Below are positions 22,467-40,902 of a DNA stretch of 64,000 bases, piece by piece. The first letter of the stretch is position 1, and each line of letters starts with the position of its first letter. The translations under genes were made by a program, and so were the position numbers. The notes under the pieces are model-generated. The model made no database searches. It saw only the letters and a list, made by a program, of their open reading frames with translations, and was not told where the DNA came from. The stretch is from contig NZ_SOCA01000002.1 of NCBI RefSeq assembly GCF_004364345.1, positions 819,711 through 883,710 of the forward strand, in the 5' to 3' direction. This DNA is from Prosthecobacter fusiformis. Lineage in GTDB: Bacteria; Verrucomicrobiota; Verrucomicrobiia; Verrucomicrobiales; Verrucomicrobiaceae.

Positions 22467-22528
22467 AATCCTGTCCTTTGCCCTATATCGGACGGGAGGG
22501 CAAGTGCGGACGTGCGAATGTTTGGCCT

Positions 22529-24745: not shown

Positions 24746-24747
24746 GA

Positions 24748-26376
24748 TCAGTTTCCAGGCATCTTGGAACCCGAGGCAGCCGTGAAGAAATAAAGGCGCT
24801 CAATGATCTGGCTGGTAAAGGTCAGCGAAACGGAAAGGGTGAATAAAATGGGGGTGGCAAGACCGCTTAGAATCATGACGGGGATGATGAAGCCGGTGGC
24901 CGCAAGCAGTAGGCGACGGGCTTCAAGGGGCTTTGAATGAAGTTCATCCAGAATGCGTGCTGATTTATGCCAGGGACTGCTTTCATTGGTCAAGGCTTGA
25001 GCGTTTTGATTCAGTTCAAAGAGTGAAACGATCCATCGCATAACCAGTGTGCTGCTGATGGCCACGAACATGATCTTCACATCCAGCCAACACCAGACGA
25101 TGCCGGTCAAGCCTGCGCCGAGAAGCAGCATAGTGCCCAAAAATTTACCTGCGGTGAGTTTAAACGACCAGTAGGGACGTCGGGTGTCCACATACACCAT
25201 GATTGAAGTGAGGACGGCCAGGATGCCGATGAATGCGGTGCCAGTGACGGCCAATTTTAAGAGATGCAGATCTCCCCACCACCAGGCGGCCATCACCGAA
25301 GATGCTGCACCGATGAAGCCGCCAAAAGCCAAGATCTCCCGTGAAAGCCAGGATTTCCTCCAGCCCATGAATGCACGCCATGCTTTCAAAGGCTGGCCGA
25401 GATGGAGGACGCTAAGCTGGATGCCCATGAAGCCAACAAAGAAAGCCACGGCGCTGGTGATACCAGCCTGCTGCAAGGTGAGTGCATCCATCCACAAGGC
25501 AACTGCACAGGCGATGAAGGCTCCGGTACTCATCTGTGTCATCACCAGCATCCATGAAAGCGGTGCATGTGAATGATCCCGCTCCAGACGGCTGGCATCT
25601 GCTGCGTGTGCATGGGCTGGTAGCGGACGTTTGCTGACGTAGCGAGTGGAGGGGCGAGTGTAGCTGCTTTCGAAGGCCCCGCTAATGATGCTGCCGTGAC
25701 TTGAGATATCGACAGTTCTTACCGCTACAATTTTAATAGCTTCATTAGGACAGGCCTGCACACAGGCTGGTGCTTCGCCTTCCGCCAGCCGACCGTGACA
25801 CATGTCACATTTGCGGACGATGCCACGCTTGAGGTTAAACTTGGGCACATCATAGGGGCACTTCAGAATGCAATAGCTACAGCCGATGCATTGATCATCC
25901 AAATGTCTGACGATGCCAGTGACGGCATCCTTGTCATAAGCGAGGACCGGGCAGCCATCCGCACAGGCGGGATCAGCGCAGTGATGACAGGCGGTGGTGA
26001 CTGTCTGTAAATAAGGCTGTTTGCGAGTGCCCACCAGCAAACCCATATCCCGCCAGGATTCATTGTCATCAAGGCCGTTCAGTGAGTGGCAGGCTACGAC
26101 GCAGGCTTTGCAGCCCGTGCAGGCATCCAGATTGACTTCGAAGGAATATTGCTCACCGGGTTGAGGTTTACTTAATGGGATGAGGTGAGCAAAACGCTTG
26201 AACGGAGTGGCTTGATCATAAGCCTCCGAGAAAAGAGTCACCGGGGTTTTTAAGGTCTGCTGCTCTTCTAGCAAGTTTTCCAGCAGGAGAGAATCAAGGA
26301 TGTTCGATTTATCATGGCCTGTTTCACAAGCAGTCTTTCGACTGCCTGCGAGAGGATCTGCTAAATCAAAAATCAT
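24748..26376 (-). CDS. DmsB-DmsC fusion: four-cluster ferredoxin plus membrane anchor
   Basis: Residues 80-230 carry the four cysteine clusters of the DmsB family ([58 protein letters not shown]). From about residue 280 to 535 there are around eight hydrophobic helices that match the DmsC/NrfD-like quinol-binding anchor. In most bacteria these are two proteins. The arrangement suggests that quinol electrons go through the iron-sulfur clusters to the cytoplasmic nitrate reductase encoded 2 bases downstream. The first about 75 residues have no clear homology. Confidence 0.88.
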
Positions 26377-26397
26377 AGATGGCTGAAAGGCTCTTGG

Positions 26398-28152
26398 TTA
26401 GGCCGCTTCGCAGAAGATCTCCTGGAGCTGACCCACTGTGTGGCGGTTGCAGAAGCTGTGGAATGATTCCTCGCCTTCGCGCTTTTGTTGGAAGCCTTTC
26501 AGCATGGTCTCAAGGGTGCTGCCCAGAGATTCAAAGGGAACACCGCTAAAGATTTGTCGGCCGATTTTACGGTTCTCACCAAAGCCGCCTCCGACAGTGA
26601 TGTGATATCCTTCACCGGACTCTGATTTCACTTTGGTGCCGAGCAGGCCGATGTCCCCCATGAAGTGTTGGGCGCAACTGTGGGCACAGCCGGTGAAGTG
26701 GATGTTGATCGGCTTGTCCAGTTTCACCCTCTTATCTAAGTACTCCATGATTGCGATGGCATGGCCCTTCGTATCCGTCGCGGCGAATTTGCAATAACGG
26801 TTGCCTGTGCAGGCAACAAAACCACTCTTCAAATTTGACTGTTCGCAGGGGAGCCCAAGCTTTCTGAGGGACTTGGCCAAGGTGGCTGCATAAGCGGCTT
26901 TGACATTTGGGATGATGAGGTTTTGCCAAACAGTTAGGCGAACTTCACCGGAGCCATAACTTTCGGCCAGATCGGCGACGCGTTCAAGCTGCCGGGCGGT
27001 GAGCTGCCCCACGGGCACGCTGGCTCCCACATAAACGAGCCCTTCCTGTTTTTGTGGATAAGTGCCCACATGGGAGTGACCTTGCTGGGAGAAGCTGCGT
27101 TTTTCCTGGATGGGCGAAGTCGGTGCGAGGCGGGTGAGTTTAAACGGCAGCAGTTTTTCCGTTTCTGCCATAACTCCCTCCAGGCCCATGCCTTCAATGA
27201 CATATTTGAAACGGGCCTTTTTCCGGTTGGTGCGGTCGCCATGTTTGATGAAGACGCGCAGCAGAGCCACCATGACATCATTGAGTTGCTCTGGCTTGAC
27301 GATGACACCCCAGTCACTGGCGAAGGTTTGGTGTCCGGTGACGCCGCCCAGAGCGATGCGGAAGTAGATGCCTGGCTCGATGCCATCGCCATCATCAAGA
27401 ATGCGGACTGCACTGGCACCGATGTCATTGGTATCCTCCACGGCACTGATCAAACCGCCGCCATCGTAGGCGATGTTGAACTTGCGAGGAAGATCATAAA
27501 ACTCTTTTGAAGCGATGATGAGCGTAGCCAGTTCATTCACCAAAGGTCGCACATCGATGAGCTCATGCGGATCATAACCCGCACAAGGATTCATCGTGAT
27601 ATTGCGGATGTTATCTGCGCCAGCACCTTTGGAATGCAGGCCGCAAGACTGGATGCGCCGCAGAACTTCGGGGCAGTTTTTTGGCTCGATGAGGCGAATT
27701 TGGAAATTGTTCCGCGTCGTAATCTGGATGTAACCTGTTGTTAGGTCGCTGGCGATGGCCGCGAGTTCACGCAGTTGATAGCTTTTCACCACGCCGCCGG
27801 GGATGCGCAGTCGGCACATGTAACCGTCTTTGACAGGATTGAGCCAGAAAAGGCCATTCCATTTATAGCGGAAGACGGACTCTGGCTCGGGTTTGGCATT
27901 CCAGCGTGCATCCATGACCAGTTGCTCAATGGCATCAAAAGGATGGAGTTCGCGTTTGATGCGTTCTTCTTTAGTTAGGTCTTCAAGGGACGGGCCTTCG
28001 GGGATCGGAGCCTTGGCTGCTGGGGGGGAGGATAGATCTCCAAAGCTGATGCCGCCCGCGGAGATACCCGCGAAGAAACCTTCAAGGTAGCGCTGTTGCT
28101 CTGGCGAGAAGTCTTTGCCTGGCGAGGATGGGGCGGCAAGGGCAGTCATCAT
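26398..28152 (-). CDS. nirA: NirA-type siroheme nitrite/sulfite reductase
   Basis: A 584-residue sirohaem/[4Fe-4S] reductase with the duplicated nitrite/sulfite reductase half-domains. The cluster and sirohaem cysteines are in CTGNRYCKFAATDTKG and CAHSCAQHFMGDIGLLG near the C-terminus. The nitrate context makes nitrite the likely substrate, six electrons to ammonium. The N-terminus carries SPEQQRYLEGFFAGISAGG, which also occurs in altered form in the diflavin gene just upstream. The start at 28152 (ATG ATG) replaces a weak TTG at 28176. It is separated by about 40 bases from the diflavin gene. Confidence 0.9.
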   Translation of the reverse strand: MMTALAAPSSPGKDFSPEQQRYLEGFFAGISAGGISFGDLSSPPAAKAPIPEGPSLEDLTKEERIKRELHPFDAIEQLVMDARWNAKPEPESVFRYKWNGLFWLNPVKDGYMCRLRIPGGVVKSYQLRELAAIASDLTTGYIQITTRNNFQIRLIEPKNCPEVLRRIQSCGLHSKGAGADNIRNITMNPCAGYDPHELIDVRPLVNELATLIIASKEFYDLPRKFNIAYDGGGLISAVEDTNDIGASAVRILDDGDGIEPGIYFRIALGGVTGHQTFASDWGVIVKPEQLNDVMVALLRVFIKHGDRTNRKKARFKYVIEGMGLEGVMAETEKLLPFKLTRLAPTSPIQEKRSFSQQGHSHVGTYPQKQEGLVYVGASVPVGQLTARQLERVADLAESYGSGEVRLTVWQNLIIPNVKAAYAATLAKSLRKLGLPCEQSNLKSGFVACTGNRYCKFAATDTKGHAIAIMEYLDKRVKLDKPINIHFTGCAHSCAQHFMGDIGLLGTKVKSESGEGYHITVGGGFGENRKIGRQIFSGVPFESLGSTLETMLKGFQQKREGEESFHSFCNRHTVGQLQEIFCEAA

Positions 28153-28191
28153 ATAAAAGGTGGGGGTGAGGGACAAATTCGACTGAAGAAC

Positions 28192-29844
28192 TCAATACAC
28201 ATCCCGTTGGTAGCGTTTGTTTTTCTTCATGTCGGCGATGTAAGCGGTGGCTTCTTCGGCGCTATTGCCACCGGCGGTCTGGATGATTTCGTGGAGAGCT
28301 GCGTCCACATCTTTGGCCATGCGTTTGGCATCACCGCAGACATAAAAATGCGCGCCTTCTTCGAGCCATTGCCAGAACTCTGCTGCGGCTGTGAGCATCC
28401 GTGTTTGAACGTACACTTTTTCTTCCTGGTCTCGGGAAAAGGCGGTGTCGAGGCGGCTTAGCACGCCTTTTTGTACCCACTCAATGATCTGATCATGATA
28501 GAGGAAGTCGGTGGCGCGGCGCTGGTCTCCAAAGAACAACCAATTTTTCCCGGGTGAGCCGGTAGCTTCACGTTCCTCGAGGAAGGCGCGGAAGGGAGCG
28601 ATGCCGGTGCCGGGTCCGACCATGATGACGGGTTTAGTACGGTCGGTGGGCAGGCGGAAATGCTTGGCAACGTGGAAGAAGATGCCGGTGGTTTCCCCCA
28701 GGGGCAAGCGCTCCGCCAAGAAGGTGCTGGCGACGCCTTTATGGACGATGCCGTGGACTTCATAACGCACGGCTCCGACGCAGAGGTGAACTTCTTCTGG
28801 ATGTGCCTTGAGGCTGGAGGCGATGGAGTAAAGACGCGGCTGGAGCTTGCGCAGATTGGTGACGAAGTCGGCCACGGATCCTGGATTGCCAGGCGTGATA
28901 CCGTGCAAATGACGGATGTCATAATGGCTGATCATGGCATCGCGAAGAGAGGCGGTGCCGATGTCTGGCAGAGGGACTTCACAATGGGGATCGAAACCGT
29001 GAGCCGAGATGATGGAATCGACCACTTCAGCGCAATTTTTGACATAGACGCCGAGGGCGTCACCGACTTCATAATCGAGGCCGGAACCGGCCAGTGAGAA
29101 AGCGATGTGACGGGTGTCCTTGGCACTGCCGGTGGCATTGAGCTCTAGGTTGGCGATGAGTTGTGCCTGGAAGGGATTCTTTTTAGAGTAGCCTGATTCT
29201 TCAACGATTTCAGTCGTGATAATGGGGTTTGAAGAGGCTTGCAGTGAAAGGGTGGCGGTGCTTTCCAGAGCCGCAAGGACTGAGGTACTCCAGGTTTTGG
29301 CCAGGTCGTCAAACTCCACATCGCAGTCCACTCTTTCCACCACACGTATGGCTCCAAGTTCAGCAAGACGCGCATCAATTTTTTTACCGGCGAGGCAGAA
29401 GGTATCTCCATAGTTTTTATCGCCGAGAGCGAGCACACTGTATTTCACTCCGGTCAGAGCCGGGCTGCTGCCGTTTTGATTGATGCTGTCCCAGAAGGAC
29501 ATGGCATTGTCCGGCATGTCGCCTTCACCCCAGGTGCTGGTGATGAGAAGCACATTTTGTTCGCGGACAAGGTCGGCCGGTTGCAACGAGTCGAGGCCTG
29601 CTGCGCGCGCAGCAAAGCCCCGGCCCGTTGCTTCCCTGGCCAGCCGCTTGGCCAAACTTTCTGCATTGCCGCTCTGACTGCCAAAAGCAATCAGCAGCGG
29701 ACACTGGGGTGAGGCAGAGGCCCCTGTCGGGGCGGGGCCGGAGGAAGCTCCACGATTGAGGAGTCCCGCCAAAAAGCCATTGAGCCAGGCTCTTTGCTCT
29801 GCTGAAAAAGGGGCAGAATCAGGTATGATCGGTACAGTGTTCAT
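28192..29844 (-). CDS. CysJ-like diflavin reductase
   Basis: A 550-residue diflavin reductase: an FMN flavodoxin domain (IAFGSQSGNAESLAKRLA, TSTWGEGDMPDNA, residues about 50-190), a CPR-type FAD domain (RLYSIASS) and a ferredoxin-NADP+ reductase C-terminus (VGPGTGIAPFRAFL, HFYVCGDAKRMAKDV, ending in RYQRDVY). This is the architecture of sulfite reductase alpha subunit, which feeds NADPH electrons to a sirohaem partner. Here that partner should be NirA, downstream in the same operon. The N-terminus has FSAEQRAWLNGFLAGLL, a partner of the motif in NirA. Confidence 0.9.
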   Translation of the reverse strand: MNTVPIIPDSAPFSAEQRAWLNGFLAGLLNRGASSGPAPTGASASPQCPLLIAFGSQSGNAESLAKRLAREATGRGFAARAAGLDSLQPADLVREQNVLLITSTWGEGDMPDNAMSFWDSINQNGSSPALTGVKYSVLALGDKNYGDTFCLAGKKIDARLAELGAIRVVERVDCDVEFDDLAKTWSTSVLAALESTATLSLQASSNPIITTEIVEESGYSKKNPFQAQLIANLELNATGSAKDTRHIAFSLAGSGLDYEVGDALGVYVKNCAEVVDSIISAHGFDPHCEVPLPDIGTASLRDAMISHYDIRHLHGITPGNPGSVADFVTNLRKLQPRLYSIASSLKAHPEEVHLCVGAVRYEVHGIVHKGVASTFLAERLPLGETTGIFFHVAKHFRLPTDRTKPVIMVGPGTGIAPFRAFLEEREATGSPGKNWLFFGDQRRATDFLYHDQIIEWVQKGVLSRLDTAFSRDQEEKVYVQTRMLTAAAEFWQWLEEGAHFYVCGDAKRMAKDVDAALHEIIQTAGGNSAEEATAYIADMKKNKRYQRDVY

Positions 29845-29892
29845 TGGAATGAAAGCGGCTTCTTCCAGAGACAGAGGTTTTTTGCGGCCAAT

Positions 29893-30312
29893 TCAGACGG
29901 CGGACTCCTTGGAGGCTGCCTTCATTACATCGGCCAGGAGGGTGTAGGTCTTTGTCCAGGCCTCGGCGACGGCCGGGGTGTAGGCATCACCCAGGCCCTT
30001 GCCAAGAGTCCAAAGCAGGGCTCCGGCCACGGTGTCATAGTGCTCGTCCTTTACACCATACCCGACATGCCGCCGTCCTAGCGACTGGACGGCGGGTACG
30101 ATTTCGTCCAGGTGATCCAGGCCCTTGACGGCGATGGTGATCATCTGCATGAGCTTTTTTCCCTGCTCCTTGATATCGGAGGTGAAGAGCGGACGAAGAG
30201 AGGGATCCATCTCAAAGAGACGGTTGTAAAACAATCCGGCGGCGGTCTCTGAGATCGGGATGACCTGGGCCCAGGTTGTTTGGACGAGTACTTTTTGTTC
30301 GGGTGTGATCAT
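29893..30312 (-). CDS. Single-domain globin (bacterial haemoglobin)
   Basis: A 139-residue globin of the Vitreoscilla haemoglobin/flavohaemoglobin-globin type. FYNRLFEMDPSLRPLF holds the B-helix tyrosine and the C/D region; RRHVGYGVKDEHYDTVAGALLWTL contains the proximal histidine region and the F-G turn. Such globins bind oxygen and nitric oxide. In this operon it most likely protects against NO and nitrite by-products. It lacks the reductase domains of flavohaemoglobin; the adjacent diflavin reductase could in principle reduce it, which is an inference. Confidence 0.87.
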   Translation of the reverse strand: MITPEQKVLVQTTWAQVIPISETAAGLFYNRLFEMDPSLRPLFTSDIKEQGKKLMQMITIAVKGLDHLDEIVPAVQSLGRRHVGYGVKDEHYDTVAGALLWTLGKGLGDAYTPAVAEAWTKTYTLLADVMKAASKESAV

Positions 30313-30352
30313 GGCGGGCTGATTAGGGTGGGATTAAGACAAAGATGGCTCT

Positions 30353-30943
30353 CTAGTTGGAGACGGTGAGCGGGATGCGGATCACCACGCCGCCCATGAC
30401 ATCACCTTCTTTGAAGTCGGTGCGAGGGGAGTCGTCGTGGTTGTTGTGGCACTTCACGCAGGCTGCGGCGATGGCGATGTCTGGATAGACGGCGGTGAAG
30501 TATTTTTTGCCGCCAAGGGTCTCCTCCGTGTAATAGTTCTGGCCCACGTTTTTGACGATGTGCGCCAGGCCTGTCTTTTCAGCATCGGTCTTGGGTGAGT
30601 TCTGCTTGTTGATGGGCCATTCGGAGAGCAGGGCATAGGTGAAGCCCTTTTTCTTCTCGGCCACCATTTCTGCGCCCATGCGGAACATCTGAGCGGGCAG
30701 CGGCAGGGCTTTGTCATCCTGCCAGTGTTCGCTGGCTTTGATCACCTTTTCTTCGTTTTGCAGGCGGTTGACGACGGCCCGTGTGTAAACGGTGCGGTCA
30801 GATTCCATCACTGCGTGCAAGCCGTCGGCCATTTGTTGTGGGGAGATACCGGCGGTGACAGCGGTTTCTGATTTGCCTCCGCAGGAGCTGAGAAGGCCGA
30901 GGATTGCTGCGAGTGCCGGGATGTGGAACGTGAATGATTTCAT
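30353..30943 (-). CDS. Tll0287-like haem-binding lipoprotein (DUF3365)
   Basis: A 196-residue protein with a lipoprotein signal (lipobox LSSCGG) and a single c-type haem motif, CVKCHNNH, close to the C-terminus. The pattern of a helical N-terminal part with VNRLQNEEKVI and a C-terminal GDVMGGVVIRIPL strand fits the Tll0287-like/DUF3365 haem domain. That domain is known in redox sensors and in single periplasmic proteins. It starts 19 bases after the multihaem cytochrome gene, so it is likely its periplasmic partner. The start at 30943 replaces an upstream start before the signal peptide. Confidence 0.8.
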   Translation of the reverse strand: MKSFTFHIPALAAILGLLSSCGGKSETAVTAGISPQQMADGLHAVMESDRTVYTRAVVNRLQNEEKVIKASEHWQDDKALPLPAQMFRMGAEMVAEKKKGFTYALLSEWPINKQNSPKTDAEKTGLAHIVKNVGQNYYTEETLGGKKYFTAVYPDIAIAAACVKCHNNHDDSPRTDFKEGDVMGGVVIRIPLTVSN

Positions 30944-30962
30944 AAGTGTGGGTGGGATGAGG

Positions 30963-32312
30963 TCATTGTTTTTTGACGGATGATTTCCGGCGGCTGAGCA
31001 CCATTTCGATGGATTCGATGTGGTGTTCTGGATGTCCGTCAAAATTGGAAGGGCCGAGTTTGGGATCGGCCAAAGAGTCCATGGTGAAGCCGAGACCGTG
31101 GCAGTTCATGCACACTCCCCTGGCCATCTTTTCCACCGGGCGCAGATTCATGCTCTGGTTATGCTGTACACTCACCGTGGTGAGGCCGCCCCTGGCATGA
31201 GTCTCCCGAGGCATGTGGCATGTGGCGCAGCTCACGCCGCTGCCTGCCGGGGCCTTGCCGCTGATCTCCGCCATCCAGAGCTGATAGTGGGAGGAATTCT
31301 TGTAGGCCAGGCTGTGATTGTCGGCATGGCATTGGAGGCAGGATTCTACCGCAGCGCGGCGGGTATCGCTGTCATGCGGGGTGTGGCAGGAGGTGCAAGT
31401 GAGGCTCAGGTGAGCGGATTTTTCCTGCATGGGCAGGCGGGCTTGGCCCGGTTGCATCGGGGGCAGCCCCTGGGCTACCCTCATGCCATGCAGCCCTGCG
31501 AGAAATCCTTCGTTCTCCTGCTTGTGGCAGTGGGTGCAGGAGTCCATGCCGGGGCTGTCCTGCCACGAATTCTTCGTACCATGGCAGGCCGTGCAGTTGA
31601 CGGCGGAGGCGGCGTGAGCGGAGGCGGCCCATTCATTGAGGATCCTGGAGGCAGCGGGGCTGCTGACGGGCAGATGACCATCATGCTGGGCAGAGGAGAG
31701 GGCCACCGTGGCCGAGGCGGCAATGGAGGCATTTGGGGAAGGAGTGCGCTGCGGCAGGATGGCGTTTAGCAGCTGGGCGGGCCCGGAAGCATGCTTGGCC
31801 AGGAAGTCTTCGTACAGGGCGGTGTTGTCGTGATAGTTATGGCAGCCGACATTTGTGCAGGTGGTGAAGCTCAGGCCTTCGTGGGTGGGGCGCTCTTTGG
31901 CCACGTCGGCATGGCAATGAAGGCAATAGTCCATGGGCTGCGTCAGGCCCATTTGCGAGGTTGCTTCTGGGCGGTGTTCGATGTGGCAGGTGATGCACTT
32001 GTCCGCAGCGATGGTACTCAGGCGGTCCGCATTCCGGGGATCGGCAAACTTGGCCATGGAGTGGGAGTCTTTGGCGGCAGTGAGGGCACCGCCATGGCAG
32101 TCTAGGCAGGATTGCTCACGCACGGCACCCCAGGGCTCATGACAGGCCGAACACTTCATTTCGATCTGGTAGTGACCGTGCGTGGTGGGCCCCGGCAGGA
32201 AGACTGTGGAGGCTCCGTCATCCTCGCGGAAGCGGCCTGCCAGATAGCTGCTAAGCACAGCGGCGGAACCGATGCCAAGCACCCAGGGCAGTATGGAGGC
32301 GGACGTATTCAA
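30963..32312 (-). CDS. Multihaem cytochrome c, about 11 haems
   Basis: A 449-residue protein with one N-terminal membrane helix (ILPWVLGIGSAAVLSSYLAG). It has ten CXXCH motifs (CSACH, CLDCH, CITCH, CLHCH, CTACH, CTHCH, CTSCH, CLQCH, CATCH, CMNCH) and one CX4CH (CTNVGCH). It does not match NrfA (no CXXCK) or NapC/NrfH, and looks like an uncharacterised periplasmic electron-transfer cytochrome with a cytochrome c7/octahaem-like fold. The TTG at 32312 overlaps the stop of the flavoprotein gene by 4 bases, which supports this start over an ATG at 32384 that overlaps by 76. Confidence 0.85.
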   Translation of the reverse strand: MNTSASILPWVLGIGSAAVLSSYLAGRFREDDGASTVFLPGPTTHGHYQIEMKCSACHEPWGAVREQSCLDCHGGALTAAKDSHSMAKFADPRNADRLSTIAADKCITCHIEHRPEATSQMGLTQPMDYCLHCHADVAKERPTHEGLSFTTCTNVGCHNYHDNTALYEDFLAKHASGPAQLLNAILPQRTPSPNASIAASATVALSSAQHDGHLPVSSPAASRILNEWAASAHAASAVNCTACHGTKNSWQDSPGMDSCTHCHKQENEGFLAGLHGMRVAQGLPPMQPGQARLPMQEKSAHLSLTCTSCHTPHDSDTRRAAVESCLQCHADNHSLAYKNSSHYQLWMAEISGKAPAGSGVSCATCHMPRETHARGGLTTVSVQHNQSMNLRPVEKMARGVCMNCHGLGFTMDSLADPKLGPSNFDGHPEHHIESIEMVLSRRKSSVKKQ

Positions 32313-34306
32313 TAGCGGTAAACGGTGAGGATGTGAAACAGCACCAGCACCACGAGGGGCCAGGTGAGGAGGGCGTGTACGCATGTCCAGCCCATCTGCA
32401 GCCAGCGGGCGGAGACAGGGGGCAGGCGATGGGAGAGGGCGATGACCGCGCCTGAAAAAGCGCCTGTCAGCGCCAGGGTCAGCATGTTCAGCATGAGCAC
32501 TTTATTCAGATTGAATCCCAGGCGGAAGCCGGTGTGGCTGACCAGGACCAGGAGTGAAAGCACCCCCAGAGCGGTGTGCAGGAAGCGCCACAGGCCGTAA
32601 TCCCCCACACGCACCAGCGCACGCACCCGCTTCCGCAAGGGCAGCAGGAGGGCAAGAAGCACCAGGCCTAACAAAACATACCCAGTCAGCTGCTTCCAAA
32701 AACCATTGAGCCAGAGCTGGTCATAGCGGAAGGCCGCCACCGTCCGGCTCAGCGGAATGGGCGGCAGCAGGCTGTGAGCGGCTGTGAACAGGATGGCGAT
32801 GAGGCAGGTCCACAGTAGCGGTCTGGCCAGGCGTGCAGCGGGTGAGACCGTGCTGCCACAGAGCTGGGCCAGCAAAGGGCGGCAGGAACCGCACACTGTG
32901 CCGGCCCCCGTTTCAGCGGAGAGAGCGGCGACCGTCTTGCACCCTGCTTCAAACGCACAGCTTAGACGGCCACGGGTGACACCTGTACATTGGCAGACAG
33001 CGGTGGTGGCCGGCCATTGGGTCACCTCTGTGGCGGCAGGTTTCCAAGGAGAGCCGGTTTTGACAAACCGGGTCTGCTCCCAGGAGCGCAAGCGCCGTCT
33101 TTGAAGCAAGGCCGTTTGAAGCCTTCCCACATCCTCAGTGCTGCCAAAAAGGCTGACCCCGGACACGCGGCCTTCATCCAGCAGGATCTGCTTCAGCATG
33201 CCCTGGCTTTTCCATACCAGGAGACTGCCTTCACCCCGAATGTCGCCGATGGTGACTACATCTGTGCCGGCGAGTTTTAGCCGGACAGGATATTCGCTGG
33301 GGATGAAGAGCGAATTGCGCCCGGCCAGCCTTTCTGCGAGCACGCGAGCCATGTCGAATCCAGGGGCTGCAAATCCATAGAAGACCCCGCGTGGCAAGGC
33401 ACATTCGCCAATGGCAAAAATCGCGGGATCTGAGGATTCCAGTGCTTCATTCACCAGAATGCCGCCACGGGCACCAGTTTGCAGGCCGCAGGCCCGGGCC
33501 AGTTCATCGCGCGGCTCTACCCCGGCGGCCATGACGATCATGTCCACCGTGAGGCTGCGCTCATCCCGAAAATGCAATTGCAGAGCATTTCCTGTCTGTG
33601 TGATGGCCGTGGTGATGCAACCGGTGAGGACCTTCAGGCCGGTGCTTTTGACGCGATGCTCCAGCATTTGCGAAGCCTCCGCATGAAGCTGCCGACTCAT
33701 CAGGCCGTGGGCGGCCTCCAGGACATGAGTCTGAACGCCCAGGTCCAGCAGGGCACGGGCTGCTTCCAGGCCTAACAACCCCCCGCCGAGAACTGCGGCG
33801 GTCTGCGCTGTGGCAGCCTTCTGCCGGATGGCTGCCAGGTCCGCCAGAGTGCGATAGACATAAACTCCGGGAAGCTCTGCGCCGGGCACCGGCAGGCGAC
33901 GCGCCGAAGAGCCGGTGGCCAGGATTAAAAAATCGTATTCAAAAATGCGGCCCTGGCGAGTAGTGACCTGCTGATTTTTCCGGTCAATGTGGGCCACCGC
34001 ATCTCCGAGGGCCAGCTCAATGCCATGCCCGGCATACCATGAAGGTGGGGCCAGTTGTAAATGGGCTTCTCCCTCGATGCCCAGGCCCTGGGTCAGGTGG
34101 ATGCGGTCATAAGCCGGTACGGGTTCTTCTGCAAGGATGGTCAGATGAAAACCCGGAGGGGCCAGTTTGGTCCACTCCACACAAAAGCGGTGGCTGACCA
34201 TGCCGTGGCCGATCATAACCAAACGGCGTCCTGATGCCGCAGCCCCGCCCGCCACTGCCTGGGATACAGGCAGCGCGGGAGCTTCAGCGGGCGGGGGTGT
34301 TTTCAT
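32309..34306 (-). CDS. Membrane-anchored NirB-like flavoprotein with BFD [2Fe-2S] and b-type membrane domain
   Basis: A 665-residue fusion. Residues 27-340 are a NirB/rubredoxin-reductase-like FAD/NAD(P) domain (VMIGHGMVSHRF, ILATGSSARRLPVPGAELPGV, AVLGGGLLGLEAARALLDLG, AAGVEPRDELA, AIGECAL). A BFD-type [2Fe-2S] domain (VCQCTGVTRGRL ... VCGSCRPLLAQL) follows at about 430-485. The C-terminal 180 residues have about five hydrophobic helices with histidines suitable for haem b. NirB normally ends in a sirohaem domain; here that is replaced by the membrane part. It should pass NAD(P)H electrons into the membrane and on to the coupled multihaem cytochrome. Confidence 0.85.
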   Translation of the reverse strand: MKTPPPAEAPALPVSQAVAGGAAASGRRLVMIGHGMVSHRFCVEWTKLAPPGFHLTILAEEPVPAYDRIHLTQGLGIEGEAHLQLAPPSWYAGHGIELALGDAVAHIDRKNQQVTTRQGRIFEYDFLILATGSSARRLPVPGAELPGVYVYRTLADLAAIRQKAATAQTAAVLGGGLLGLEAARALLDLGVQTHVLEAAHGLMSRQLHAEASQMLEHRVKSTGLKVLTGCITTAITQTGNALQLHFRDERSLTVDMIVMAAGVEPRDELARACGLQTGARGGILVNEALESSDPAIFAIGECALPRGVFYGFAAPGFDMARVLAERLAGRNSLFIPSEYPVRLKLAGTDVVTIGDIRGEGSLLVWKSQGMLKQILLDEGRVSGVSLFGSTEDVGRLQTALLQRRRLRSWEQTRFVKTGSPWKPAATEVTQWPATTAVCQCTGVTRGRLSCAFEAGCKTVAALSAETGAGTVCGSCRPLLAQLCGSTVSPAARLARPLLWTCLIAILFTAAHSLLPPIPLSRTVAAFRYDQLWLNGFWKQLTGYVLLGLVLLALLLPLRKRVRALVRVGDYGLWRFLHTALGVLSLLVLVSHTGFRLGFNLNKVLMLNMLTLALTGAFSGAVIALSHRLPPVSARWLQMGWTCVHALLTWPLVVLVLFHILTVYRY

Positions 34307-34351
34307 CTGGCGTGGTTTTTGGTGGTGCGTGTCCGGACGGTAATGGAGGGG

Positions 34352-35731
34352 TTAGAAATCAATCTGCACCTGAACGTAGCCGAAGTGCGCATTGTCGTCG
34401 GCACCGGTATCGGAGAGGTAATCACCGGCGACGTAGAGGCTGTAACCGGCCTGAAAGGCTACATGGGGGTTCAGCTTGTAAATGGCGGTCAGGTCAAACT
34501 CCTGGCCACGGAAGCTGCTGGCATCGCGGGCTGCTGCATTCACGGGGCGCACAGCGGTGACGCCGTTCACACGACGCCAGGCGTCGTCGTTGCTGGCATT
34601 CCAATAGAGGTGGTAATCCATCATCACCTTCAGCTTGGGAGTGGGGGTGAAGCTGATGTTCAACTGCGGGTTGTGTAAGTTTACCCAGCCGGAGGTGTCC
34701 ATGTATCCATAGAACAGGTGGTTGGTGGGATAGAGGTTCTGGAAGGTTTCAATATCGCCATCAGCGGGGTCTTGATCACCCGTGGCATAATTGTATTGGA
34801 GGCCGACACGCGGCTTCCAGGAATGCTTGAAGTTATACCCGATGCCCCAGTGACCGGCGAAAGCGGTGAGGTCACGGCCACTGACTTTGCCAGTCTGGAA
34901 GGCCATTTCAGTCTCATAATCCCAGCCGCCTAGTTTTTGAGGGTCTCCTTTCCACAAGGTGCCTAGGGTCAGAAAGCTGGTCTCACCCAGACGGGGGCCG
35001 AAGGTGCCGTTTCCATCGTCGCGCTTGTGCAAGACGTAGAAGTCAGTGGTGGTGTTTATGGGGATCCACTTGCTGCTGAGGTAGATGCCGCTGAAAAGCT
35101 CGTTGAGCTGTGTGTCATCATCCAGGAGGGTGGACTGGTTCCACTTGTGATCTCTGAACACAACGGGGCTGCCGCTGAAGAGGTCCAGGGACCAAGTGGG
35201 GGCTGCGTAGCGCAGTTTCAGTGCGTCAAAGGCCCGGGCACTGTTCAGCCACTCCAGGGGGCCAATCAAGCGCTGGTCTCCATAGGCGAGGAACTGGCGT
35301 CCGACGGTGGCGCTCATGCCTTTTTTCAAATCACCGGCCTGGATGTAGGCCTTCAGCACGTCAAAGGTGTCATCACCTTCCGCACCGAAGACGCCCATCT
35401 CATTCGGGCGGCTGCCTCCGATTTCGCGCAAATCCTGGCCCTGGACATAAAGTTTGAGCCAGGGGGTCATGCTGTAGCCAATGCCTAACCGGAAGCGTTG
35501 CAGGAGCCAGGAGGCGTCCTGTGGGCCGTTGACATCGCTGTTGAAGTCGAAGTTGTTTTCACGTATTTCAGCACGCATCTTTTCCTGGATGTCCACGGTT
35601 ATTTTACCGTCGAACAGGGTGATGGGTGCGTAGCCCGGCGGGGGCAGGGGAGCGGGTGTCGCCGGTGGTAGGCTGGGGGTTCCGGCTTGGGCCATGGAGA
35701 CCGTTGCCAAGAGGAGTGCTAACCTTTTCAT
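34352..35731 (-). CDS. Alginate-export-type outer-membrane porin
   Basis: A 459-residue protein with a Sec signal (MKRLALLLATVSMAQA), a proline-rich linker, and a long series of amphipathic beta strands ending in an aromatic terminal strand (FGYVQVQIDF), typical for an outer-membrane barrel. QRFRLGIGYSMTPWLKLYVQGQD and GRQFLAYGDQRLIGPLEW match the alginate export porin family, which also includes general anion porins. In this operon it is probably the outer-membrane path for nitrate or nitrite. It is read before the NirB-like gene. Confidence 0.85.
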   Translation of the reverse strand: MKRLALLLATVSMAQAGTPSLPPATPAPLPPPGYAPITLFDGKITVDIQEKMRAEIRENNFDFNSDVNGPQDASWLLQRFRLGIGYSMTPWLKLYVQGQDLREIGGSRPNEMGVFGAEGDDTFDVLKAYIQAGDLKKGMSATVGRQFLAYGDQRLIGPLEWLNSARAFDALKLRYAAPTWSLDLFSGSPVVFRDHKWNQSTLLDDDTQLNELFSGIYLSSKWIPINTTTDFYVLHKRDDGNGTFGPRLGETSFLTLGTLWKGDPQKLGGWDYETEMAFQTGKVSGRDLTAFAGHWGIGYNFKHSWKPRVGLQYNYATGDQDPADGDIETFQNLYPTNHLFYGYMDTSGWVNLHNPQLNISFTPTPKLKVMMDYHLYWNASNDDAWRRVNGVTAVRPVNAAARDASSFRGQEFDLTAIYKLNPHVAFQAGYSLYVAGDYLSDTGADDNAHFGYVQVQIDF

Positions 35732-35770
35732 TCAGTGTATATGGGAGTTGGATACGTTGTTTGTTCTCGG

Positions 35771-36652
35771 CTAAGCGGCGGCTGCAGGGAAAGGGAAGGC
35801 ATGGGCGGCCATTTCGGCGGCCATGTCTGCGGAGGGTTGAAACTCCGGCTCACGGCTGGGGCGGATGTGTGAGCGGTCGTTAAGAAAGGTAATGAGGCGT
35901 GCGCGCAGCTCGTAGTAACGTGGGTCTTCCATGATCTCCTTGCGGTTGCGTGGACGCTCGAACGGGATGTTTAAAATGTCGCCCACTTCGGCTTCCGGGC
36001 CGTCTGTCATCATGACCACACGGTCAGAAAGGAAGATGGCCTCATCCACATCATGGGTGACCATCAGTGTGGTGATGCGGTTGCGCCTCCAGAGTTCTAG
36101 CAGCACTTCTTGAAGCTCATATTTGGTCAGTGAGTCAAGCATGCCAAAGGGCTCGTCCAGGAGGAGCATCATGGGTTGCAAGGCAAAGGCCCGGGCAATG
36201 CCCACACGCTGGCGCATCCCCTGGGAAAGCTCGCCGGGATACTTATGCATGGCTTCAACCAGTCCCACGATGCTGAGATAATACTCCGCCACTTGGCGGC
36301 GCTCAGCTTTGCTGGCGGTGAAATAGACTTGGTTCACACCGAGCATGACATTTTCAAAAGCAGTCATCCAGGGGAGCAAACAGGGGGACTGGAAAACAAT
36401 GCCGCGATCAGGCCCTGGTCCGAGGGCCTCTTTGCCCGCTAGAATCATGTTTCCTTTGCTGGCATCACTCAGGCCTGCGACCATCATGAGAACTGTGCTT
36501 TTACCGCAGCCGCTATGGCCAATCAGAGTGGCGAATTCGCCTTCTTTCATCTTGAGGTTGAAGTTTTTAACGATCGTGGCCGGACCTTTCGGAGTATCGT
36601 AGATCTTCCACAGACGATCCAGCTCAAGCATTTTTGGATTCGGAATACTCAT
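35771..36652 (-). CDS. nrtD: Nitrate ABC transporter ATP-binding protein
   Basis: An ABC ATPase of 293 residues of the NrtCD/TauB/SsuB class. Visible are Walker A ([17 protein letters not shown]), the signature [17 protein letters not shown] and Walker [15 protein letters not shown], with [19 protein letters not shown] as the H-loop region. The tail of about 40 residues after the core is Ala/Pro-rich without known function. It overlaps the other ATPase gene by 4 bases; the two probably form a heterodimer driving NrtB. Symbol D rather than C is by lack of an NrtA-like extension; the neighbour also lacks it. Confidence 0.9.
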
Positions 36653-37569
36653 GCTGTCACCTCCACTTCTTCGTTCTTGATTTCGTTGCGGCGTTTCGGC
36701 CCTCGGCGGCTGAGAAACTCAAAGCTGTTGGCCTGGCCAAGGTCTTCCGGCAAAATGTCTGGAAGAACGAGCTTGCGGTTAGACTTCACTTTGTTTTTGC
36801 CTTTGGATTCCAGCAGTGTGGTGATGAGATGGGCACGTAGTTTTTTGAATTCAGGGTCGTGGTTAATGGCCTTGCGGTCACGTGGTCTGTCCAGGTTCAC
36901 TGGGATGGATTCGCCTAAAGTTGCCGGTGATGTGGGCAGCAGCGGAATGACGCGATCAGCTACCAAGATGGCTTCATCGGGATCATTGGTAATCCAGACC
37001 ACCGTGGTTTTGTTATTGAGCCAAATTTCGGCTATTTCATCCTGTAGCGTAGCACGTGTGAGGGCATCCAATGCGCTGAGGGGTTCATCCATCAGCAGCA
37101 CCTTTGGATTCATGGCCAGAGTGCGTGCGACTGAGACACGTTGCCGCATCCCGCCAGAGAGTTCCTTTGGCAGCTTTTTGGCGGCGGATGTGAGTTTTAC
37201 CATGCCAATGTATTTGGCCACATGCGCTGCCCGTTGATCCTTGGTCCAGTCTTTGAAAACTTCATCCACAGCGAGGGCGATGTTCTCTTCCACCGTGAGC
37301 CAGGGCAGCAGAGAATAGTTTTGGAAAACCAGCCCCCGGTCAGTTCCCGGTTCCGTGATGGGTCTGTCTTCCATCAATGCGACTCCGGTGTCTGGCTTAA
37401 CCAACCCAGAGATGAGATTGATAAGGGTGGTCTTACCGGTTCCAGAATAACCAACAATGACGACAAACTCTCCTTCCTCGACAGCTAGATTGATGTCCTT
37501 CAGGACTTCACTGCGCTGGCCAGGAAGGCCAAACCCTTTTGAGGCGTTTTTGATTTCGATGAGCGGCAT
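36649..37569 (-). CDS. nrtC: Nitrate ABC transporter ATP-binding protein, second copy
   Basis: An ABC ATPase of 306 residues with Walker A ([18 protein letters not shown]), signature [17 protein letters not shown] and Walker [16 protein letters not shown], followed by [19 protein letters not shown]. The conserved nitrate-family signature around [24 protein letters not shown] is clear. In cyanobacteria NrtC carries a C-terminal nitrate-binding domain; here that part is a separate gene at 39784-40902. The about 70-residue C-terminal tail is basic and ends [11 protein letters not shown]. Confidence 0.88.
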
Positions 37570-37588
37570 ATCGAATGAATTTCTCCTG

Positions 37589-38473
37589 TTAAGCGGTTTT
37601 GAAACGGCCTTCGATCAGGCTCATGATCCGGTCCATAAAGTACCCCGTGAGGCCGATGGTAAGAATGCAGAGGATGATGTGCGCGTAGCTGCTGGAGTTA
37701 TACTGCTGCCAGAGAAAACCACCGACACCAGGCCTACCCGTGAGCATTTCCACGGCGACAATGACGAGCCAGGCGATGCCCAGGCTGAGGCGGAAACCAG
37801 TGAACATGTAGGGTAATGTGGCTGGCACGAGCACCTTCCATAGAGTCTTAGCCTTCGAAAGTTTAAGCACTTTAGCGACATTCATGTAGTCCTGAGGAAC
37901 TGCACGTACCCCCACGGCGGTATTCAACACGGTGGGCCACATGGCGCAGATGGCGATGGTGAAAAGAGCGGCAGCATCAGAGGCACCGAAAAAGGTCCGG
38001 CCCGCAGCATCCGTTAGCTTCACATTGCTAAAGAGCACCAGTCCCAAAGGATACCAAGCGAGCGGTGATACCGGACGCAGGACCTGGATGATCAGATCCA
38101 GCGCCATCATTGCCCTTTTAGATAATCCAAGAATGAACCCCAGAGGTGTGCCTAAAAGCAGTGCGATCAAGTAACCTTGAGCCACCAGTTTCAGGGACAG
38201 CCAGGTAAATCTCAGGATTCCCTGGTCCAGTTCGCCACGCTTGGCCAGCGGTTCAGTCACATACAGTTTGCTGGCAGTCCAAGTTTCTGACGGCGTCGGC
38301 AGGTCCTTGGAAATGCCTTCACGTTTAACATCTTCAATCATGTCTCCAAACCCATCATCTTTGGTATATTTGACGGATTTTCCGGCGATGGCATACCACA
38401 GGATTCCACATGCCAGGATGGCAATCATGGGCAGCAGAACGTGGTCAAATTTATAGCGTTGAAGCAGGTGCAT
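37589..38473 (-). CDS. nrtB: Nitrate ABC transporter permease
   Basis: A 294-residue inner-membrane permease with about six helices and the EAA-like loop (DYMNVAKVLKLSKAKTLWKVLVP) that docks to the ATPases. LGTPLGFILGLS, RPVSPLAWYPLGLVLF and AMWPTVLNTAVGVRAVP are typical for NrtB/SsuC-class permeases. A longer than usual N-terminal section (about residues 30-75) lies between the first helix and the main core. It sits 19 bases before the ATPase gene and follows NrtA in the transcription order. Confidence 0.92.
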   Translation of the reverse strand: MHLLQRYKFDHVLLPMIAILACGILWYAIAGKSVKYTKDDGFGDMIEDVKREGISKDLPTPSETWTASKLYVTEPLAKRGELDQGILRFTWLSLKLVAQGYLIALLLGTPLGFILGLSKRAMMALDLIIQVLRPVSPLAWYPLGLVLFSNVKLTDAAGRTFFGASDAAALFTIAICAMWPTVLNTAVGVRAVPQDYMNVAKVLKLSKAKTLWKVLVPATLPYMFTGFRLSLGIAWLVIVAVEMLTGRPGVGGFLWQQYNSSSYAHIILCILTIGLTGYFMDRIMSLIEGRFKTA

Positions 38474-38500
38474 GGCAGTGGCGGCGGCTTTGGGATAAAA

Positions 38501-39787
38501 TCAGGCTTTCAGACTCTTGACCGCGAATCCTGCGGCGTAGGCCTCGAGGTCGGCTTTGGGATCAAAGGTTACTCCATCGAAAAGAGTCTCAGGCTTTTCG
38601 TCGAGACCGGCGTGCGTGTAGCCGATCTCCTTCATCGCTTCCTCATAGATGTCTGTGCGCATCACCTGTTTGGTCACGGCTTCATAGTCCGGTGCTCCGT
38701 CCGTGAACCCCCAGCGGCGTAATTGTGTGAGCCACCATTTCGCATATTTTGGCTGCGGGTAGTTACAGTTGCGATCACTGAAAATCATGTAATCGGGATC
38801 ACGAAACTTACGGCCATCCCCCATGTCATATTTGCCCTGCAGACGAAGCAGCAGGCTCTGCGGTGGACAGTTGATGTAAGTGGCTGCGCTGACGATGTTC
38901 GCCTGCTCCTCTCGGTTTTCCATCTTATCCAGCCACACACTGGCTTCGTGCAGCGCTTTGAGCACAGCCTTCACCGTCTTTGGATTTTTATCTGCGAATT
39001 CTTCCGTAAAAGCGCAGACCTTTTCTGGGTGATCTTTCCAGATGGCCTGGGTATTGATGGCTGTGAATCCGATGTCTTCTGCAATGGCGCGGGCGTTCCA
39101 GGGTTCGCCAACACAAAAGCCGTCCATTTTACCAACCTTCATGTTAGCCACCATTTGGGGAGGTGGCACGGTGATGAGCGAGATGTCAGCACCGCCTCCC
39201 ATGGCATCTCCAGGATGAATGCCGCCAGCCGCCAGATAGTAGCGCATCCACATGGCATGTGTACCCGGTGGGAAGGTCATGGCAAAGGTCATCGGCGTCC
39301 CTGCTGCCTTGGCCTCATCCGCAAAAGGTTTTAGGGCTTTGGGGTCGGCGGCCACTTTGCCTTTAAGGCTATTGGCGAGAGTGATGGCCTGACCGTTGCG
39401 ATTGAGCAGCCAAGGGATGATCATTGGCTTTTTCGGTGCGCCACCCAGCCCCATGGTGCTGGCGATGGGCATGCCGATGAGCATGTGCGTGGCCTGGAGG
39501 TCATTGTTGCTGAGGGAGTCTCGAATAGCTGCCCAACTTGCCCCCTTGGTCACTGTAGATTTGATGCCATACTTTTTGAAAAGCCCCTTCTCATGAGCCA
39601 AGACGATGCTGGAGCAATCTGTCAGGGCGATGATACCAAAGTTAAGATCGGGCCGTTCTGGTGAATCATCCGCATAGGCACTGCCCACCCAGCCTTGAGG
39701 AAGGCCGGAGAGTAATGTGCCGAGACCAGCGGCCGTAGAGCGCTGCAAAAGGCTACGACGCGAGATAGGGGTGGGGAGGGGTTTCAT
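38501..39787 (-). CDS. nrtA: Nitrate-binding protein (NrtA/CmpA), Tat-exported
   Basis: A 428-residue substrate-binding protein. The N-terminus PISRRSLLQRSTAAGLGTLL is a twin-arginine signal, as in other NrtA proteins. The mature domain has LNFGIIALTDCSSIVLAHEKGLFKKYGI, NRNGQAITLANSL, MTFPPGTHAMWMRYYLA, KMDGFCVGEPWN and the tail with CNYPQPKYAKWWLTQLRRWG, all typical of nitrate/bicarbonate-binding CmpA/NrtA proteins. The nitrate context favours nitrate. Its gene overlaps the preceding NasS-like gene by 4 bases. Confidence 0.92.
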   Translation of the reverse strand: MKPLPTPISRRSLLQRSTAAGLGTLLSGLPQGWVGSAYADDSPERPDLNFGIIALTDCSSIVLAHEKGLFKKYGIKSTVTKGASWAAIRDSLSNNDLQATHMLIGMPIASTMGLGGAPKKPMIIPWLLNRNGQAITLANSLKGKVAADPKALKPFADEAKAAGTPMTFAMTFPPGTHAMWMRYYLAAGGIHPGDAMGGGADISLITVPPPQMVANMKVGKMDGFCVGEPWNARAIAEDIGFTAINTQAIWKDHPEKVCAFTEEFADKNPKTVKAVLKALHEASVWLDKMENREEQANIVSAATYINCPPQSLLLRLQGKYDMGDGRKFRDPDYMIFSDRNCNYPQPKYAKWWLTQLRRWGFTDGAPDYEAVTKQVMRTDIYEEAMKEIGYTHAGLDEKPETLFDGVTFDPKADLEAYAAGFAVKSLKA

Positions 39788-40902
39788 GCTTGGGCAGGTT
39801 TAGCGTTTTGGGTGGATTTGCGCAGGGTTTTGACGGCGGTTTTAGGGGCAGGGGAAAGGAGTGAGTCCGAGGTCCAGCAGGCAGACATGGCCTCCGTAGC
39901 TTCGGCTCTTTGAGAGGGAAGAATCAGTCCATGGGTGATGAACTCTTCCAGTAGCCAGCGACCACGTTCGCTGGTGGGCACATTGGCTTCACGGCGATGA
40001 AAGATGTGAAAGTTAGCTGCATCCGCAGTCTTGCCAGTGCCCAGGTCAAAAGGACCCACGAGGGATCTGCGCATGATGGCCTCGCCATTGCTAAAGTAAC
40101 TGCTTTCCGCGAGGATACGGGCCACTTCGGGACGGTTGTCCATCTCATCGCAAAAGGCGCAGGCTTCTTTTAGTGCGGCAGTGATGGCCTGGGCTTGGTC
40201 AAGGTGCTGCTCAATGAATGTCTCATTCATCAGCAGGACTTTCTCTGGATGATTCGGGGCGAGGTCCTCGCTGGTGGCGGCTACCCAGCCGATGCCTTTC
40301 TCGACAGCGACGGAGTTCCATGGCTCACCCACACAGTATCCATCAATCAGCCCGGCAGCCATATTGGCAGCCATTTGAGTGGGAGGCAGAGCGACAATGC
40401 GGACATCCTGATCGGGATTGATTTCCCCCCTGGCCAGCCAGCGGCGAAGAAGAAAATGGTGGGATGCATAGCGGGAGACCATGCCAAAAGTGAGGCGCCG
40501 GGAGGTGGTGCTGCGGATCAGTTTCTTCAGACTTGGAGCATCGCGGACGCCACGATTCCACAGGTCACGGCTGAGGGTGATGGCATCTCCATGCAGATTG
40601 AAGACGAATGGTGCCACCACCCTGCAAGGGGGCGTGCTCAGGCCCAGACGCATCGCAAGCGCCAGCCCGGCGATGGCGTGTGCGGCGTCCACCTGGCCAT
40701 AGAGCAGCTTTTCCCGGATGGTGGCCCATCCGACTTCACAACTGAGTTCGACCTTTACTCCTTGTTTGCGAAACAGCTCTTTCTCTTTGGCCACCAGCAG
40801 GGGTGCGCAGTCCGCGAGCGGAATGAATCCGATGCGGACCGGCTGAATAACCCCGGTGAGGGCAGGGGGGGAGATGTTGGCTGACTTCGGCATGACAGCC
40901 AT
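39784..40902 (-). CDS. Cytoplasmic NrtA-like nitrate-binding protein (NasS-like)
   Basis: A 372-residue CmpA/NrtA-family domain without any signal peptide: it starts MAVMPKSANISPPAL and goes straight to VRIGFIPLADCAPLLVAKEKELF. It has the same landmarks as the exported paralogue (NLHGDAITLSRDLW, SRYASHHFLLRRWLA, IDGYCVGEPWN). A cytoplasmic version may be a nitrate sensor like NasS, or the regulatory C-terminal domain of NrtC encoded alone. No NasT-type antiterminator is seen in the window. It is the first gene of the long nitrate operon, 85 bases from the divergent LysR gene. Confidence 0.85.
   Translation of the reverse strand: MAVMPKSANISPPALTGVIQPVRIGFIPLADCAPLLVAKEKELFRKQGVKVELSCEVGWATIREKLLYGQVDAAHAIAGLALAMRLGLSTPPCRVVAPFVFNLHGDAITLSRDLWNRGVRDAPSLKKLIRSTTSRRLTFGMVSRYASHHFLLRRWLARGEINPDQDVRIVALPPTQMAANMAAGLIDGYCVGEPWNSVAVEKGIGWVAATSEDLAPNHPEKVLLMNETFIEQHLDQAQAITAALKEACAFCDEMDNRPEVARILAESSYFSNGEAIMRRSLVGPFDLGTGKTADAANFHIFHRREANVPTSERGRWLLEEFITHGLILPSQRAEATEAMSACWTSDSLLSPAPKTAVKTLRKSTQNAKPAQA

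Follow-up and report, generated by a model that had tools for sequence, protein, structure and literature searches.

A candidate three-gene conduit for electrons from NAD(P)H to periplasmic cytochromes in a nitrate operon of Prosthecobacter fusiformis

Closest described systems

The general view is that periplasmic multihaem cytochromes draw their electrons from the quinone pool. Conduits of the CbcL/CymA type, in which b haems and/or a membrane anchor feed a periplasmic multihaem c-type cytochrome, receive their electrons from menaquinol. The locus described here shares this outline, but appears to be built for direct NAD(P)H input. It consists of three minus-strand genes of the verrucomicrobial bacterium Prosthecobacter fusiformis, found at positions 30353-34306 of a 64,000-nucleotide stretch of DNA (the window; assembly GCF_004364345.1, contig NZ_SOCA01000002.1, positions 819,711 to 883,710). 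In order, gene 1 (FNB), gene 2 (MHC) and gene 3 (Lip) encode a flavoprotein fused to a membrane domain, an 11-haem cytochrome and a one-haem lipoprotein; together they are called the trio below. The trio is likely to form an NAD(P)H:cytochrome c reductase module that spans the membrane, that is, an electron-export conduit, a reading that is well supported by the anatomy of its proteins.

FNB has an NAD(P)H/FAD domain followed by a BFD [2Fe-2S] domain, as do NirB and the FAD/BFD subunits of Nas, and like them is found in a nitrate-assimilation operon. It differs from NirB in having no sirohaem domain and in carrying a five-helix, putative dihaem-b membrane domain. Among Nas electron-transfer subunits, NirB-type FAD and BFD proteins that lack the sirohaem domain have already been described. 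These are soluble, whereas FNB, with its five helices, is not, and the NasA of the present operon has a neighbouring Fer4-DmsC fusion as its likely partner. The original prediction, which was made from the DNA letters, set the locus against NirB, which normally ends in a sirohaem domain and is soluble. The loss of the sirohaem domain is not new; the new part is the fusion of FAD and BFD domains to a dihaem b domain and the pairing of this fusion with two c-type cytochromes.

Ferric reductases and NADPH oxidases characteristically have an HX13H motif in each of two helices. With these enzymes and MsrQ, FNB shares the two HX13H pairs (helices 3 and 5), the input from NAD(P)H and flavin and, presumably, the outward transfer of electrons. 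In FNB, however, a NirB-type flavin domain stands at the N-terminus, a [2Fe-2S] domain lies in between, and the output would go to an 11-haem cytochrome. The C-terminal haems of MHC locally resemble those of the decahaem cytochromes DmsE and MtrA, of NrfA and of the octahaem nitrite reductases, but the window MHC falls below the curated cut-offs, has 11 haem sites and lacks the motif CXXCK.

The components of the trio

The features of the trio are as follows.

32309..34306, minus strand: gene 1, FNB, NirB-type FAD / BFD [2Fe-2S] / putative dihaem-b membrane protein, 665 amino acids
33398..34222, minus strand: FAD/NAD(P)H domain Pyr_redox_2 of FNB, residues 29-303, expectation value (E) 4e-49 (Pfam; ferredoxin/rubredoxin reductase fold)
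32864..32998, minus strand: BFD-like [2Fe-2S] domain Fer2_BFD of FNB, residues 437-481, E 4e-9 (Pfam)
32327..32821, minus strand: FNB membrane domain, five hydrophobic helices, residues 496-660 (from the sequence and AlphaFold)
32576..32578, minus strand: H577, probable cytoplasmic-side b-haem ligand in an invariant HX13H, probably paired with H644 (32375-32377)
32534..32536, minus strand: H591, probable periplasmic-side b-haem ligand in an invariant HX13H, probably paired with H658 (32333-32335)
30963..32312, minus strand: gene 2, MHC, membrane-anchored 11-haem c-type cytochrome, 449 amino acids, TTG start
30353..30943, minus strand: gene 3, Lip, one-haem Tll0287-like / sCache_heme lipoprotein, 196 amino acids

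The NirB-like FAD and BFD domains fused to a membrane domain, already proposed in the original prediction, are borne out by the family matches and the five helices. The NirB model TIGR02374 covers FNB over model positions 1-466 of 794 (424 bits against a cut-off of 578), and membrane helices take the place of the sirohaem/4Fe-4S C-terminal half. Four cysteines of the BFD domain (C438, C440, C472 and C475) are invariant in ten aligned members. The AlphaFold model of FNB, built with nine sequences, has a mean predicted local distance difference test score (pLDDT) of 76 and a predicted template modelling score of 0.58, and its membrane segments are helical. Foldseek placed 2v3a and 3fg2 at the top of the matches to this model; the best 50 are flavin or pyridine-nucleotide oxidoreductases and are uninformative on the membrane half.

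HX13H occurs twice in the membrane domain of all 11 FNB members, nine of them from the window's phylum and two from Pseudomonadota, and H577, H591, H644 and H658 are invariant columns of a ten-row alignment from which one of the latter, G607, was left out. The two pairs supply the histidines that a stack of two b haems would require. Helices 2 and 3 are joined by a positively charged loop, which fits a cytoplasmic N-terminus; this loop and the order of the helices would place H577 and H644 on the cytoplasmic side of the membrane and H591 and H658 on the outer side.

The TTG start codon of MHC (32312-32310) overlaps the TGA stop codon of FNB by four bases (TTGA), and the ATG of Lip, at 30943, lies 19 bases past the MHC stop; the predicted positions of both were thus confirmed to the base. 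The list of open reading frames had given MHC an in-frame ATG upstream of the TTG, at 32384. All three trio genomes of the genus retain the TTGA overlap; of the eight other complete loci, three have ATGA in its place.

MHC has an N-terminal hydrophobic anchor, ten CXXCH motifs and one CX4CH, and is therefore the membrane-anchored protein with 11 haem sites that had been foreseen. The CX4CH is probably a genuine haem site, because the site aligned to it in G607 is an ordinary CXXCH, which gives that protein 11 CXXCH motifs. All ten complete MHC proteins have 11 haem sites; the incomplete one, of genome G035, reads WVTCH at the third site, which may be genuine or an error at the contig edge. Twelve histidines outside the motifs are invariant in all ten proteins (14 in the eight from the window's phylum), so that every haem could be bis-histidine ligated.

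It has also been considered that MHC is itself the terminal periplasmic enzyme, an NADH-driven nitrite, nitric oxide (NO) or hydroxylamine reductase related to NrfA and the octahaem nitrite reductases. The C-terminal haems do match the segment GVSCxxCHMP of these enzymes (best E 1e-8, to 2ot4), and the MHC members of the four genomes of family f44 score 31.7-35.4 bits with PF02335, above its cut-off of 24.1, over about 55-90 of 438 positions only. The window MHC scores 15.9 bits with the same family, and 46.9 bits against a cut-off of 192 with the decahaem DmsE model TIGR03508. CXXCK, the catalytic haem motif, is found in none of the ten complete MHC proteins, and with 12 invariant spare histidines available to the 11 haems, no open site is evident. 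Moreover, each of the nine trio genomes in the window's phylum encodes NIR_SIR (nitrite/sulfite reductase) proteins, NirA-like ones in five, and the four f44 genomes encode full-length NrfA. An enzymatic role for MHC is thus improbable, and the periplasmic nitrite reduction suggested in the original prediction is not supported. Without CXXCK, with its spare histidines and with its local likeness to NrfA, MHC looks more like a wire than like an enzyme, though some enzyme activity is still conceivable.

Lip has the lipobox LSSC and one CVKCH, as expected of the single-haem lipoprotein originally described, and is a stand-alone member of the Tll0287-like family PF11845 (E 9e-21; 75.3 bits against a cut-off of 24.1). 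Members of the Tll0287 family are now defined as c-haem Cache domains, and Tll0287 and the P. putida protein have a distal cysteine ligand (PMC12889525). Lip, in contrast, has no cysteine available as distal ligand: all 12 aligned Lip proteins have CXXCH, and in none of them was a cysteine found outside this motif and the signal/lipobox region. Sequence searches of the PDB with Lip gave nothing, or chance-level matches. Two of the aligned proteins, from G226 and G182, stand outside any trio and adjoin a gene for an FG-GAP / ASPIC-UnbV repeat protein (G226 L189:8421-10627; G182 L190:7004-9288).

In the proposed conduit, NAD(P)H would reduce the FAD of the cytoplasmic NirB-type domain, from which electrons would pass to the BFD [2Fe-2S] cluster. 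They would then cross the membrane on two b haems, first that of H577/H644 at the inner side and then that of H591/H658 at the outer side, and would leave the outer haem for the membrane-anchored 11-haem cytochrome and, finally, the one-haem Cache-type lipoprotein. The occupancy of the cofactors, the direction of electron flow and the contacts between the partners are inferred from the sequences. The route from NAD(P)H through haem b to the periplasm, as first proposed, gains support from the paired histidines and from the conservation of the three genes as a block.

Conservation of the trio

A full-length FNB was found in three of 96 relatives (G000, G018 and G035). When 387 genomes of the phylum were searched with the FNB membrane domain, eight strong matches (E 2.5e-23 or better) and two weak ones were obtained, and the search with MHC gave eight matches at E<=1e-20 in the same eight genomes. 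In all eight the three genes are adjacent and in order. A ninth trio genome, G035, is not included in the count of complete trios, as its contig ends inside MHC. The search of 299 genomes of Pseudomonadota, the phylum of Agitococcus lubricus, gave two strong and six weak membrane-domain matches. Both strong loci (G588 and G607) hold the trio in order, the FNB of G607 being cut by a contig edge. The six weak matches (G746, G492, G613, G598, G468 and G593) were left out of the trio count, as were G107 (E 3e-6) and G204 (E 1e-5), which represent another system.

The trio is thus contiguous in all ten loci that could be read across it, G035 being the eleventh, with spacings that range from a 14-base overlap to a 96-base gap. 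The domain order, the paired histidines, the haem sites and the gene order are read directly from the sequences, as is the conservation, and the trio is not a chance grouping, because both the co-occurrence of its genes and their order are conserved. The original prediction had staked itself on paired histidines in the C-terminal helices and on a trio kept together in relatives, and both were found.

Variants of the arrangement were also observed. In G607 (L188:1-3723), the FNB relative carries an additional FNR-type FAD/NAD module, placed after the BFD domain and before the membrane domain, and is followed by the 11-CXXCH cytochrome and then by a Lip homologue without the lipobox cysteine. 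A possible sister architecture is present in G107 (L122:8005-12543), where genes for a cNMP-binding + 4Fe-4S protein, an HX13H membrane protein and a 10-haem cytochrome form a cluster, and in G204 (L123:9618-11115), with the first two of these. The G107 cluster has the same plan as the trio, a cytoplasmic Fe-S protein, an HX13H membrane protein and a multihaem c-type cytochrome, but its input is of the ferredoxin type, no FAD domain was found in it, and the genome has no match to the Lip family at E<=1e-15. Inputs that change, as in G607 and G107, on a constant core of membrane protein and cytochrome are what would be expected of an electron conduit.

Several observations weigh against the conduit. 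The membrane part of the FNB model has a pLDDT of only about 50-80, and the membrane domain falls below the cut-off of every Pfam family in the nine of 11 domains for which scores were shown. Its sub-threshold likeness is to PF01292, PF14358 and PF01794: cytochrome b561 (PF01292) is matched at E<=10 by four of nine members, with a best score shown of 21.9 bits (G396) against a cut-off of 30.1, and ferric reductase (PF01794) by three of nine, with a best E of 3.2 and, for the window, 8.3 bits against a cut-off of 28. The AlphaFold model of MHC, with a mean pLDDT of 41, is too poor for use or for a fold search. The trio is patchy, a full-length FNB being present in three of the 48 genomes of the genus that were searched. 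Finally, among the flanking genes that were annotated, none for an acceptor recurs at every trio locus.

Wider searches added nothing to this picture. The PDB held no sequence match to the FNB membrane domain. A search of contigs with FNB returned 74 loci, from Acinetobacter and other Moraxellaceae, in which the NirB-type matches end by residue 485. Among plasmids, FNB matched 1070 records, none of them covering 80% of the query, and MHC none; no relative was found among the viral contigs searched. No paper on the trio was found in the open-access literature, which is weak evidence of absence.

The nitrate operon and its electron lines

The trio lies within a dense run of 14 minus-strand genes (22529-40902), from which a gene for a LysR regulator is transcribed divergently. 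The neighbouring genes, identified by family matches, are listed below.

35771..40902, minus strand: nitrate/nitrite-type ABC transporter (two NMT1_2 binding proteins, permease, two ATPases)
34352..35731, minus strand: Alginate_exp-type outer-membrane porin, adjacent to the trio upstream and associated with it
29893..30312, minus strand: single-domain globin, adjacent to the trio downstream and associated with it, outside the core trio
22529..29844, minus strand: operon context, comprising a CysJ-like flavoprotein, NirA, a Fer4-DmsC fusion and a NasA-type molybdoenzyme

Immediately downstream of NasA is a gene for an ADP-ribosylglycohydrolase (window 21522-22562), retained in G018 and G035 and possibly connected with nitrogen control. 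On the other side, the region 42875-63952 holds a tRNA-Met gene and then genes for an RHS-repeat protein, a ParA-like ATPase, an RPA-type replication initiator, a TraG/TraD-like coupling protein and a TrwC relaxase, and is probably an integrated plasmid-like element just past the nitrate operon.

The placement of the trio in a nitrate operon, as originally described, holds for most loci but not for all. Transport genes of the nrt type are in the same cluster at eight of the 11 trio loci (eight of nine within the window's phylum); none was present on the flanks that were read at G395, G588 and G607, the upstream flank of the last being missing. In G395 the trio stands with the globin alone, and nrt, NirA and NasA are located elsewhere. 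The locus of the four f44 genomes consists of transport genes and the trio, with NasA elsewhere, and a sigma-54 activator is encoded beside the trio in G291 and G396, the two f44 genomes in which that gene was scanned with Pfam. A close NasA (E<=1e-200) is present in 46 of the 387 genomes, including all eight trio genomes. This overlap has a hypergeometric probability of 2e-8 by genome and of 7e-5 by genus (five of five within 31 of 197), relatedness being removed in neither case. Away from its trio, G588 encodes a distant relative of NasA (36% identity), and no NasA match was found in G607 at E<=1e-20. In one phylum the trio is thus associated with the use of nitrate, on which it nevertheless does not appear to rely, and it is a portable module, since two Pseudomonadota carry it without nitrate-transport genes on the flanks read.

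The gene for the Alginate_exp-type porin directly neighbours the trio in G000, G018, G035 and G314. In G291 it is about 7 kb downstream, as it is in G276, where it was identified by BLAST only. Together with a dihaem-b plan like that of ferric reductases, this association could speak for extracellular electron transfer or reductive metal uptake, in which the lipoprotein and the porin would pass electrons to Fe(III), Cu(II) or another external acceptor. A porin is, however, equally expected for the entry of nitrate. That of the window scores 17.4 bits with the MtrB/PioB family, far below the cut-off of 240, and no protein of the Alginate_exp family was among those scanned beside the Pseudomonadota trios, where part of the flanking genes was covered. 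Export beyond the outer membrane is thus a rather distant prospect.

NasA occurs in all nine trio genomes of the phylum, and its neighbour in gene order is the Fer4-DmsC gene, which adjoins it in eight of them (G000, G018, G035, G316, G291, G314, G276 and G396, where the frame looks split). In the ninth, G395, where the two belong to a nitrate cluster, a 774-residue frame with five CXXCH motifs (L126:10040-12364) separates them. The trio is therefore unlikely to be the electron donor of NasA. A role as the missing assimilatory nitrite reductase was also rejected, given the NIR_SIR proteins of all nine genomes. In the four f44 genomes one of these is an 838-849-residue frame, the size of NirB, which in G291, G396 and G276 adjoins a second NasA paralogue; a further NIR_SIR protein of G291 (L130:3886-6261; 791 residues) has a C-terminal TusA sulfurtransferase domain. 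As likely electron partners are encoded next to both NasA and NirA, to judge by gene order, the trio looks like a third electron line.

The constant company of NasA and Fer4-DmsC could also mean that FNB exchanges electrons with the quinone pool, as an NADH:quinone enzyme serving a quinol-type NasA, with the cytochromes as a side branch. Yet 38 of the 46 genomes with a close NasA have no trio, and the trio stays together without a nearby NasA in G395 and the f44 genomes, while G607 gave no NasA match at E<=1e-20. No quinone site was noticed in the FNB sequence, for which no dedicated test was made, and this exchange with quinones is a poor candidate overall. Still less probable is an inward flow from a periplasmic cytochrome to NAD(P)+ or to ferredoxin-level acceptors for NirA. 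NirA requires low-potential electrons, and flavin and Fe-S enzymes are reversible; but such a flow would run uphill in potential and against the membrane potential, and NirA has likely partners nearby, a CysJ-like flavoprotein or, in G316, a flavodoxin, as suggested by their adjacency.

The electron sink

For the electron-export conduit, the sink that is tentatively favoured is NO, or the nitrosative damage that accompanies the use of nitrate and nitrite, because a globin or hemerythrin gene lies beside five of ten loci and because Lip is a Cache-haem domain. NO handling had been raised in the original prediction, alongside a possible role in redox balance. The globin gene is the next gene identified by BLAST after Lip in four of the ten complete loci (G000, G018, G316, where it is about 0.5 kb away, and G395). 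In G588 a gene for a hemerythrin-domain protein lies upstream of FNB on the same strand (L187:14313-14849). NO would be met in the periplasm by the haem lipoprotein, while the neighbouring globin would work in the cytoplasm.

A comparable grouping is the narK-bjgb-flp-nasC locus of Bradyrhizobium, in which nitrate transport, a single-domain globin, an NAD(P)H-dependent FAD oxidoreductase and nitrate reductase are likewise encoded together. The globin and the flavoprotein are reported to form an NO-detoxification system that protects against NO from nitrate assimilation (PMC4724949). That locus differs from the present one in that Flp is cytoplasmic and thought to be the donor of NasC, and in that no cytochromes are described in it.

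This choice of sink has its own difficulties. With the globin of the window as query, BLAST gave no globin at the four f44 loci or on the flank of G607, and hemerythrin was met only once, in G588, no systematic search for it having been made in the f44 and G607 loci. In addition, the stand-alone Cache-haem member tested bound NO weakly, and tight binding was seen with the signalling type only (PMC12889525). A more far-reaching version is unlikely: the trio would be a quinone-independent, NAD(P)H-powered export complex that has stayed together in different phyla and been recruited to nitrate-assimilation operons, and its Lip, free of the usual cysteine ligand, would be a new kind of periplasmic NO reductase or scavenger.

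That Lip reports the periplasmic redox or NO state to a sensing relay, instead of transferring electrons, is very doubtful: the signalling member tested bound NO tightly, and fusions of Cache-haem domains to signalling parts show NO-sensor properties, but no signalling domain was found in the three proteins of the window, an 11-haem wire would be an odd input for a sensor, and a stand-alone member, with Cys/His ligation, was assigned a redox role in a preprint (PMC12889525).

Implications

With the trio, an operon that already encodes likely electron partners for NasA and NirA gains a third electron route. FNB, the 11-haem cytochrome and the Cache-haem protein, found together in every complete locus read, would link NAD(P)H directly to the periplasm. 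The trio also gives a stand-alone Cache-haem protein a candidate dedicated source of electrons, by which the role of such proteins becomes testable.

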